From a virus: a stretch of DNA of 53,482 nucleotides. This document shows, one piece after another, positions 44,497 through 48,718 of this stretch (the first letter of the stretch is position 1; every line of letters begins with the position of its first letter). The notes beneath the pieces were generated by a model that saw nothing but the letters and a program-made list of their open reading frames with translations, had not been told where the DNA came from and did not search any database. The position numbers and the translations under genes are program-made. The stretch spans positions 1-53,482 of IMG/VR virus record IMGVR_UViG_3300017989_000144; one strand, given 5' to 3'.

Positions 44497-44988
44497 ATGC
44501 ATGCGTATAGTACCATCAAAACAATTGGGCGGCTGGTAGGGTGGCCAGTGTACGCTCTTCATGGGAGGGAGTGGGTGGAGAAGCACACACGGCGCGGAGG
44601 GGCGTTCCGCTTCCTCTTGGGGCCGGGTCAGTGCACGTGTCTCGGTTGGATGCGGTTCGGGCAGTGCAAGCATCTTCAAATGGCGGCGGGTGACGCGGCG
44701 TGGGTGCCGGGCGAGGACGGTTGGAGCGGGGAAATGGTACGTGATTATATAGGTACGCTGGAGCCGTTGTGCCCCGGCGCGGTGGAACGGTGGACGGCGG
44801 CATGGACGGCGGGACAGCGATGCTACGGGGAGCACACTGTAAAACAGGTCACTCTAGCCGTACCGGAGGCGATGGCGGGTGAATATACCTTCTTAATCGC
44901 GGCTCGGGTGGAACGGAAACGAGGGCTATGTATACGCTTCAAAAAAATCGGAGAAAATTCGGAAATTGGGGTTGCGGCGTCGCCGTGA
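44497..44988 (+). CDS. SWIM zinc-finger protein
   Basis: A 163-residue protein starting at ATG 44497. CTCLGWMRFGQCKH at residues 46-59 has Cys46, Cys48, Cys57 and His59 with the spacing C-x-C-x(8)-C-x-H that defines SWIM zinc fingers, which bind DNA or proteins. The rest is mixed alpha/beta. The same spacing recurs in the next gene, so the two may share a target or interact. The 3' end overlaps the promoter of the MoxR gene; it ends EIGVAASP, parallel to the helicase end EIGVAF. Confidence 0.7.
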   Translation: MHAYSTIKTIGRLVGWPVYALHGREWVEKHTRRGGAFRFLLGPGQCTCLGWMRFGQCKHLQMAAGDAAWVPGEDGWSGEMVRDYIGTLEPLCPGAVERWTAAWTAGQRCYGEHTVKQVTLAVPEAMAGEYTFLIAARVERKRGLCIRFKKIGENSEIGVAASP

Positions 44989-44999
44989 TCTGGTATACT
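44972..44999 (+). promoter_or_regulatory. Promoter of the SWIM-MoxR and VWA genes
   Basis: TTGCGG at 44972-44977, a 16-base spacer, TATACT at 44994-44999. The whole region from GAGAAA upstream to TATACTTGGA is collinear with the promoter at 42227. It overlaps the last codons of the SWIM gene and would give a leader of about 50 bases. Confidence 0.8.
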
Positions 45000-45058
45000 T
45001 GGAGAATGCGGGTTGCATAGTGCAATCCGGGAGCCACCTAAATACGGAGGAGCCACCC

Positions 45059-46480: not shown

Positions 46481-46489
46481 GAGCCACAC

Positions 46490-48718
46490 ATGACCAAGAA
46501 AAGAAATTTACTGGAGCGCATGCCACGCACTTTTTCGGCAGTGCGAGGCCGGGATTATTTCGCGGAGACGGTGGGCATGGTTGCCCGGGAGGACGCGGTT
46601 GCCCGGGGGAGCTGGATGAGTTCCATGTGGGCACCCTTTCGGACCAAGAAAGTGGAGGCGCAGGAGGTGGCGTGGGCACTGATGCGGGTCCAGGGGTGCG
46701 TTCGCAATTTCCTTAGAATTCATGGGGTGCCAAAGAATACACAGATTTCGCTGGCGACCGTGGGTTGTGGTGCAAAGGGCGCTGCCGGATTCGGTAGCGT
46801 TGACCGAGGTAGTACCACCACCTTCAGCAAGCCGTATATCCTGCTGGACAAAAGTATCTACGAGGAGGCCAAAGAGGGTGAAATGCTGGACCTTTATCTG
46901 GGCGCAGCGTTGCACGAGGCCGGGCATCTGAACAACACGCGGTCGCTCTTTACTATGCTTGCACGTGGGGAGCTTCCAGAGAACTTGCGGATGTGGGTCA
47001 ACTTGTTTGAGGACGAGCGGGTAGAGGATTTGGAAAAGAAGCGGTCGCCCGGGTACGCCCCCTATCTGCACGCGTTGAAGCGTGCCCTGTTCGAGAAGAA
47101 AGAGTTTGGATTTGCTTTGCAGAACTGGACAGAACTGCCGGACATGGATAAGGTGGCAATACTTGCATTCGCCTTTATCCGGGCTCCCCACACGCTGACC
47201 CATGTCCACAAGGAGTGGAAGTCCGTTGGCGGTACGTGTGTCTTTGAGGAGCTGCGAAAGTGCGTGGGTGCCCGGGTAGTTACAGAGGCGGATGTGTTGC
47301 GGGCAGCGAAGGCCGTTGATTCCCTGCTCGCCCGAATCCGGCGGGAGTACCCAGAAGCCCCCGGCGCTCCGGGTGGCGGTGCGGGTGAGAGTGCGGACAA
47401 GAGCGACGGCAGCGCGGGTAAGAGTGCGGGCAAAGGGAAGGGCGGCGAGGAAGGTGCCGCGGGCGGCGAGGAAGGGGCAGAGGCCGGGGGAGAGGTGGCT
47501 GATCGCCGGGAGGCGCAAGCAAAAGCAGACGCCCGCGATGCGGCGGACAAGAAACGCCTCCGCTCCGCTGATGGTGATGTTCGGCGGGCGGGTGAGTCGT
47601 TGACGGGTACGGGTAACGCAAAAGAAATGTCAACCACGATGGAGCGGGGTAGAGATGACAAGGCACTAGAAAAAGCGGCGGATGCCCTAGAGGATGCCCG
47701 GGCGGAGAGAGATAGTGTTTTTGACGACCGCAAAGGCCGATTTTCTCCGATGGATATGGAGCGTATGCTGGAGCGGCTCGGCGGGCTCAGCAAGCCGCTG
47801 GACCTGGAAGAGTCCAAGGAGTACGCAAAGGCCACGGAAGACAAGATTACGTTTGGTGACGAGTGGTGCGAAGGCACGTGGAAAGGGCATATGGCCATAA
47901 CGCGGCGTACGGTTATCATACACCCGAAGGGCACGCCCGCATCGAAGAGGCGGTACAAGCAGGCTTACAAATCCGTTCAGAAGATGATCGCCCGGACCCG
48001 TAGTTTGTTTCACTTCCGTCTGGGCAAGCGTACGTATGTCCAACGCGAGCGGACTGAAGGACGATTGGACCGGAGCCGCTTAGCGTCGGCCATGAGCACA
48101 GACCGCATCTTTCGCACGTCGTATACCCGGGAGGATAAAGGGATTGCGGTGTGCCTCCTGTTGGACGAAAGTGGGAGCATGGGGGCCGCGGATAGTACAA
48201 GCAGTCTTGCACATACTGCGTTACAGCTCGGCATTCTGTTCGCGGCCTCCTTAGAGAAGGTACCCGGCGTGGAGTTGGAGGTTTATTCTCACGAGAGCTG
48301 CGGGGAGTCGGATAAGGATTGTCTTATCCGGTGCCTGTACGGCAAGGACAACCCCAACATAGAAAGCATCGGGGCGTATAATCACGGGGCGCAGAATTAC
48401 GACAGTCAGGCAATTAGGGAGGTGGGGGCGAAGTTCGCCAAAAATGTAACTAACGAAAACCGTCTTTTGATTGTGCTCTCCGACGGTTCGCCGTGTGGCC
48501 ATCGTTACGGTGGACTACCCGCCAGACAGGCAACGAGGCGAGCCGTTCAGGAGATCAAGAAAAAGTATGGAATCGAGAGCGTTCAAGTGGCGATAGGCGG
48601 GTACGGCGGGTGCGAAGAAATGTTCGATAACGTGCTCGTATGGAGCGATTTTAATACGCTGCTGGCTAATATGCGGGGCATGTTGGCGCGGCTGGTCAAA
48701 CGATATACTAACAAATAG
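46490..48718 (+). CDS. VWA-domain protein with HExxH motif (CobT-like partner)
   Basis: A 742-residue protein. The N-terminus has HEAGH at 142-146 followed by FEDERVE near 173, the arrangement of zinc metalloproteases and of CobT-like proteins. Residues about 295-350 are a Gly/Ala/Lys/Glu-rich disordered linker. The C-terminal VWA domain has LLDESGSMG with the MIDAS residues Asp559, Ser561 and Ser563, and LIVLSDGSPCG near 665. It is the expected partner of the MoxR ATPase nine bases upstream. A peptidase role, or metal-ion handling as in cobaltochelatase, are possibilities. Confidence 0.85.
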   Translation: MTKKRNLLERMPRTFSAVRGRDYFAETVGMVAREDAVARGSWMSSMWAPFRTKKVEAQEVAWALMRVQGCVRNFLRIHGVPKNTQISLATVGCGAKGAAGFGSVDRGSTTTFSKPYILLDKSIYEEAKEGEMLDLYLGAALHEAGHLNNTRSLFTMLARGELPENLRMWVNLFEDERVEDLEKKRSPGYAPYLHALKRALFEKKEFGFALQNWTELPDMDKVAILAFAFIRAPHTLTHVHKEWKSVGGTCVFEELRKCVGARVVTEADVLRAAKAVDSLLARIRREYPEAPGAPGGGAGESADKSDGSAGKSAGKGKGGEEGAAGGEEGAEAGGEVADRREAQAKADARDAADKKRLRSADGDVRRAGESLTGTGNAKEMSTTMERGRDDKALEKAADALEDARAERDSVFDDRKGRFSPMDMERMLERLGGLSKPLDLEESKEYAKATEDKITFGDEWCEGTWKGHMAITRRTVIIHPKGTPASKRRYKQAYKSVQKMIARTRSLFHFRLGKRTYVQRERTEGRLDRSRLASAMSTDRIFRTSYTREDKGIAVCLLLDESGSMGAADSTSSLAHTALQLGILFAASLEKVPGVELEVYSHESCGESDKDCLIRCLYGKDNPNIESIGAYNHGAQNYDSQAIREVGAKFAKNVTNENRLLIVLSDGSPCGHRYGGLPARQATRRAVQEIKKKYGIESVQVAIGGYGGCEEMFDNVLVWSDFNTLLANMRGMLARLVKRYTNK

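Follow-up and report, generated by a model that had tools for sequence, protein, structure and literature searches.

What might a phage do with two successive SWIM zinc-finger genes, the second of them fused to a MoxR ATPase, and a third gene that joins an HExxH motif to a VWA domain? The question is posed by positions 44,497 to 48,718 of IMG/VR record IMGVR_UViG_3300017989_000144, a phage genome whose whole 53,482-base stretch (the window) also encodes a tape measure protein, tail proteins, a DNA polymerase and a DnaB-like helicase. By sequence and structural model, the architecture encoded by the three genes, called here SWIM1, SWIM-MoxR and the VWA gene, is almost certainly that of an ATP-powered remodeller of the CbbQO/NorQD type. 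That this machine acts on the phage's own recombination or replication machinery, a claim that takes in the client as well as the device, we regard as evenly balanced between right and wrong. The cassette, from simple gene calls, is laid out as follows, with motif and domain assignments that are predictions.

44103..44116, + strand: terminator-like hairpin with a T-run, between the phrog_17202 gene and the cassette
44497..44988, + strand: SWIM1, a 163-residue SWIM zinc-finger protein, CTCLGWMRFGQCKH, assigned by conservation and profile comparison
45059..46480, + strand: SWIM-MoxR, 473 residues, an N-terminal SWIM finger and a CbbQ/NorQ-like AAA+ ATPase
45206..45247, + strand: SWIM motif of SWIM-MoxR, residues 50-63, CDCVRFKIESKCEH
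45695..46477, + strand: AAA+ module (AAA_5 and CbbQ_C), residues 213-473 of SWIM-MoxR
46490..48718, + strand: HExxH and VWA partner protein, 742 residues
46913..46927, + strand: HExxH motif (HEAGH, residues 142-146 of the VWA protein), on a predicted helix
47009..47026, + strand: EDxRxE motif (EDERVE, residues 174-179), candidate third metal ligand, on the following long helix
47987..48133, + strand: predicted VWA finger, residues about 500-548, tip EGRLDRSRL, from the model compared by eye with NorD
48137..48709, + strand: VWA domain with a metal-ion-dependent adhesion site (MIDAS; D559, S561, S563, D665)

A sequence-only reading of this DNA had placed the three genes in a row behind a promoter. 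The row is borne out, with all three consecutive on the + strand; the promoter is not. A sigma-70 scan of the whole region gave one site against 2.6 expected by chance and none upstream of the cassette, where the terminator-like hairpin lies instead. The same interval between phrog_17202 and SWIM1 holds a 109-residue frame with a CPGC motif (44153-44482) that matches no family.

Because the Pfam SWIM model (PF04434) finds no match at its cut-off in the window proteins, and because no SWIM entry stands among the Pfam families listed for the homologues of SWIM-MoxR, we base the SWIM call on conservation, profile comparison, motif rarity and a structural model. In SWIM-MoxR, C50, C52, C61 and H63 are invariant in all 11 aligned homologues, and in a ten-protein alignment of SWIM1, whose members are only 16-32% identical to the window's protein, C46, C48, C57 and H59 are the sole fully invariant columns. 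Profile-profile comparison, for which the E-values are single-comparison values, matches the SWIM1 region to genuine Pfam-SWIM regions from planctomycetes at 2e-5 (reversed control 0.07). For the fused finger the match to genuine SWIM is weaker, at 9e-4 (reversed control 0.08), and the two fingers match one another at 4e-6. The motif is rare, being found in 5 of 1744 other phage genes of the same loci (about 0.2-0.3%), one of the five being in its turn a SWIM1 gene. In the AlphaFold2 model of the SWIM-MoxR N-terminus, strands run into the CxC and two short helices surround the CxH, with a mean predicted local distance difference test score (pLDDT) of 80-94 per ten residues over residues 11-70. 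The analysis confirms that both genes carry predicted zinc-binding SWIM fingers, and the Cys and His ligands, on whose conservation the sequence-only reading had staked its case, are invariant in each. Further SWIM-like genes occur in individual phages. One phage group has a third gene with such a motif between the ATPase and VWA genes (L011:7522-8109, with equivalents in L014 and L092). The L087 phage encodes a 387-residue protein with two SWIM fingers, CHCPEFGGLGYCEH and CDCQEFRFQGQCRH (L269:624-1787, at about 28.6-29.8 kb of the contig); the neighbouring gene resembles, by eye, a DnaQ-type exonuclease.

The finger is genuinely fused to the ATPase, as had been claimed: behind the CxC...CxH N-terminus, SWIM-MoxR matches AAA_5 (1.2e-15, 58.1 bits, cut-off 22) and CbbQ_C (2.9e-10, 40.6 bits, cut-off 20.6), and both families are matched by all 11 homologues. 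By sequence the protein lies closest to CbbQ and NorQ, and its best fold matches are CbbQ2 (E 5e-19) and NorQ (E 7e-18); with the bpMoxR model it falls below cut-off. Judged by profile and predicted fold, SWIM-MoxR is a CbbQ/NorQ-like MoxR AAA+ protein with an added N-terminal SWIM finger. The profile searches that had been proposed as a check on the three names hence bear out MoxR through two families above cut-off, return only weak Pfam matches to VWA, and leave SWIM below the Pfam threshold.

For the third protein, the earlier description as HExxH plus VWA holds, with HEAGH at residues 142-146 and the MIDAS (DESGSM) at 559-564. Profiles match it to CobT and NorD, and its best Foldseek matches, NorD VWA and the midasin MIDAS, cover the VWA part. 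The four MIDAS residues are invariant in 110 phage homologues, and just before the VWA core the model has a strand-helix-strand insertion, at about residues 513-548 within the finger listed above, which was likened by eye to the NorD finger. HExxH and EDxR lie on two predicted helices of the N-terminal region in a zincin-like arrangement. H, E, H and E, D, R are invariant in 11 unselected SWIM-lineage VWA proteins, as are these ligands in 41 sequences that were chosen for having the motif, and HExxH is present in about 74 of 110 members of the wider phage VWA family; many wider-family proteins (L098-L166) have other residues at that place and retain the MIDAS. Sequence and model together identify the VWA protein as a remote CobT/NorD relative with a MIDAS and a predicted zincin-like HExxH...EDxR domain. 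One could read this domain as an active zinc peptidase fed or gated by the AAA+ ring, as its invariant HExxH and EDxR in the SWIM lineage, their retention in most of the wider family and their predicted helical setting would allow. However, the domain matches no known peptidase in Pfam or PDB sequences, the best Foldseek matches lie elsewhere in the protein, and some members of the wider family have dropped HExxH and still retain the gene pair, all of which makes a regulated metalloprotease very improbable.

A CbbQ/NorQ-type ATPase encoded next to a MIDAS VWA protein is what would be expected of a NorD/CbbO-type partnership, and supports the MoxR-VWA remodelling device that the sequence-only reading had in mind. 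Like NorQ-NorD, the iron-insertion chaperone of nitric-oxide reductase, and CbbQ-CbbO, the Rubisco activase, the cassette combines a MoxR AAA+ protein bearing CbbQ_C with an adjacent VWA gene, and a partner with a MIDAS and a predicted finger ahead of its VWA core; these systems also provide the closest solved folds. The fused SWIM finger, the separate SWIM protein, the HExxH...EDxR head and the phage recombination context set the cassette apart from these two systems.

MoxR-VWA gene pairs occur commonly in phages, where annotation mostly assigns them to vitamin B12 synthesis, and for phage cobST it has been proposed that host CobN is hijacked to raise cobalamin output (PMC8651126). Related phage proteins are indeed annotated as CobS/CobT or porphyrin biosynthesis, the cassette's VWA protein is a remote CobT relative, and the CobT VWA part and ExxRxE stretch align with it. 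Yet SWIM-MoxR scores 15.8 bits against a cut-off of 558.55 for the CobS equivalog (TIGR01650), and HExxH, invariant throughout the SWIM lineage, is missing from four cellular CobT proteins. At about the same position these have a sequence resembling (G/A)CHDxxxH, or WHDxxxH in one of them, and where EDxR would stand they read EQAR or ERAR. Neither CobN nor ribonucleotide reductase was found in the window and nine other SWIM-MoxR records, which may be incomplete and one of which is the near-identical contig described below. In planctomycetes, where sister copies of the motor occur, CobN had no match in genome G386, which has such a copy on a 7.8-Mb contig, or in G001, and two in G239. The HExxH difference, the CobS score and the missing CobN and ribonucleotide reductase disfavour a CobST assignment, although the phages' hosts may supply a CobN, and we judge a viral cobaltochelatase highly improbable. 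Phage cobST pairs of the phrog_249/phrog_459 type (PMC8651126) do resemble the cassette as MoxR and VWA genes, often HExxH-VWA, in tailed phages of the same wider family, but SWIM1, the fused SWIM finger and phrog_17202 are found in none of 204 non-SWIM phage MoxR loci, a set with flanks of about 6-7 kb that includes repeated contigs.

How widely, then, is the SWIM form of the machine distributed? After removal of copies, the SWIM-MoxR fusion occurs in 12 contigs, 31-61% identical to that of the window where compared with it: the window, L008, L009, L010, L011, L012, L087, L090, L091, L093, L095 and L250, with L014 and L092 merged as near copies of L011, and L013 and L088 as copies of L012. 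The near-identical contig L001 represents the same phage as the window. Relatives are thus more than generic MoxR/VWA pairs, and the order SWIM1, SWIM-MoxR, VWA, which the sequence-only reading had suggested seeking in other phages, recurs in ten diverse contigs. Scans of viral contigs with single proteins gave the near-identical contig alone, and alignment queries found the rest; more than 500 candidates were reduced to the best 80, so that the family counts are lower bounds. A tblastn search with SWIM1 found no match among isolated phages, and every SWIM-MoxR member is a metagenomic contig; there is a hint that their hosts are planctomycetes. The surprise voiced at a finger fused to the ATPase stands, since we found no paper in the open-licence literature searched that reports such a fusion or brings a SWIM domain and MoxR together.

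The client is suggested by what lies upstream. In most members, neighbour-gene profiles trace one block in one order and on one strand: RecA, Holliday-junction resolvase, Cas4-like nuclease, RusA, phrog_17202, SWIM1, SWIM-MoxR, VWA and three small genes. The window's genes of this block outside the cassette are these.

39066..40172, + strand: RecA/UvsX-like recombinase
40156..40545, + strand: Holliday-junction-resolvase-like protein, phrog_2002 family
40548..41465, + strand: Cas4-like exonuclease with four conserved Cys of Fe-S type, probable start 40548
43204..44073, + strand: phrog_17202 protein, probable start 43204
48785..49147, + strand: small protein of the conserved downstream block, cluster 71
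49370..49636, + strand: small protein of the conserved downstream block, cluster 96
49608..50132, + strand: protein of the conserved downstream block, cluster 29, probable start 49608

Where relatives have RusA, the window has a Sulfotransfer_3 gene (41455-42153; 2e-8). RecA, resolvase and nuclease lie near the motor in 9 of the 12 members, and at L008/L191 the nuclease is seen at the edge of the available stretch. Matches to the members are partly circular, since the neighbour profiles were built from these same families; L250, which was outside the model building, still matches RecA (2e-97), resolvase (3e-26), nuclease (3e-83) and phrog_17202 (1e-36). Because the cassette sits in a recombination block across distant viruses, a role in viral DNA recombination is probable, and one in vitamin B12 synthesis is not. 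The fixed neighbourhood points to the RecA-like filament, the resolvases or the Cas4-like nuclease as the likely client.

A second line of evidence connects phrog_17202 with the motor. Vibrio and Rhizobium phages (L267, L268) carry RecA, a small gene, a gene at the Cas4 position, a RuvC/RNase H-like gene and phrog_17202 in that order, the small gene and the Cas4-position gene being hypothetical or otherwise named and identified by their order; SWIM-MoxR is absent from the whole records of both. Conversely, scanning of genomes brought to light a sister MoxR in an Isosphaeraceae metagenome-assembled genome, and two more copies occur among 392 genomes of that phylum, on 7.8- and 8.3-Mb contigs; 45 genomes belonging to the family of the Isosphaeraceae assembly gave no additional copy. 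In all three planctomycete proteins the SWIM finger is missing, the N-terminus is a phrog_17202 domain and an HExxH-VWA gene comes next. The N-terminus of L167 matches phrog_17202 at E 1.6e-9 by hhalign and 3e-6 by profile, and those of L188 and L189 at profile E 4e-27 and 3e-17; BLASTP of the planctomycete N-terminus against phrog_17202 is not significant (E 0.21), whereas profile comparison is. The fusion and VWA pairs lie at L188:7548-11063, L189:7519-11031 and L167:4916-8381, with no obvious phage genes nearby. The ATPase tree places the planctomycete copies within the SWIM lineage, with bootstrap values of 84-97 at the relevant forks, not all of which are firm, and gathers the remaining phage MoxR proteins into a group of their own (98/99); with midpoint rooting, the long-branched L250, and L093, which pairs with the very long-branched L163, are drawn outside the SWIM lineage. 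Since phrog_17202 occurs in a motor-less block and is fused to MoxR elsewhere, a recombination-block protein has its domain physically joined to the motor there, a Rosetta-stone link between the two.

Several observations weigh against a recombination client. The separate SWIM gene is absent from L095 and L250. Of the block genes, phrog_17202 alone lies near the motor at L093/L203, and none of the recombination genes does at L095/L201. In the wider phage MoxR-VWA family, recombination genes are nearby in only 3 of the 204 loci, within the flanks given above, and the planctomycete chromosomal copies have none adjacent. Gene order, moreover, can persist without physical interaction.

The nuclease itself admits a different reading of the same neighbourhood. 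Its four Cys are kept in 12 of 12 sequences, and we take them to be of the Fe-S cluster type, as in Cas4/AddB-type nucleases. The cassette could thus be a metal-insertion or Fe-S maturation chaperone for this nuclease, by analogy with NorQD, which inserts iron (PMC13036017), and in most members, as also in two Bacteroides-type phages, the nuclease gene adjoins the motor. Against this, the block seems to persist without SWIM-MoxR in the Vibrio and Rhizobium phages, and L095 has the motor and no nuclease nearby, so that we rate such a chaperone as quite improbable.

A host-side client is also possible, because MoxR-vWA pairs have a central part in the conflict systems of bacteria (PMC7159879) and sister copies of the motor exist in planctomycetes. 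The sequence-only reading had raised counter-defence or host takeover, in which a host complex would be disarmed or refitted and its target picked by the SWIM fingers or the MIDAS. The ternary conflict systems likewise add a component to a MoxR-vWA core, but there the additions are VMAP, iSTAND, FtsH or a beta-propeller (PMC7159879), as against SWIM and phrog_17202 here; Pfam and PADLOC scans found none of those four in the proteins that they covered, VMAP profiles not being searched one by one, and the main text of that paper does not mention SWIM (PMC7159879). The cassette, however, is fixed in a conserved recombination block of diverged phages and does not lie in a variable accessory island, and PADLOC gives weak generic AAA matches only. 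Counter-defence or takeover therefore goes unsupported, and we consider it unlikely.

For a remodeller of the phage's recombination or replication machinery, NorQD offers a working analogy. The NorD finger enters the NorQ pore, and a twisting mechanism has been described from the structure of NorQD, which inserts iron into cNOR (PMC13036017). By this analogy the cassette's ATPase would form a hexamer, the VWA finger would enter its pore, and ATP turnover would twist or pull a client gripped by the HExxH-containing head on one side and the VWA MIDAS on the other, while the SWIM fingers and phrog_17202 may bring the motor to that client. The RecA-like protein is an attractive candidate on account of the SWIM proteins Shu2 and SWS1, which bind Rad51 paralogues in the eukaryotic Shu complex (PMC6316741). 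As in the Shu complex, a SWIM CxC..CxH is associated with recombination and with a RecA-family protein, here by gene proximity alone; unlike it, the cassette has an AAA+ MoxR/VWA motor. We tentatively put forward, as an unlikely but specific form of the recombination hypothesis, that the SWIM proteins and phrog_17202 dock MoxR-VWA, in the manner of a Shu-like mediator, on the phage RecA filament or junction, which ATP-driven VWA twisting would then remodel. We know of no earlier MoxR machine that acts on DNA recombination, and this one, if the Shu-like reading is true, would be the first. With its intact HExxH, its two SWIM fingers, its fusion-based tie to phrog_17202 and its place in a recombination block, the SWIM lineage gives a widespread phage machine a concrete and testable class of client, and calls the B12 annotation into question at least here.

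Elsewhere in the record, one open frame (51064-52371) encodes a Sulfotransfer_2 domain followed by a methyltransferase domain, and glycosyltransferases of families 9, 4/1 and 25 are scattered at 3076-4239, 22552-24375 and 52541-53335.

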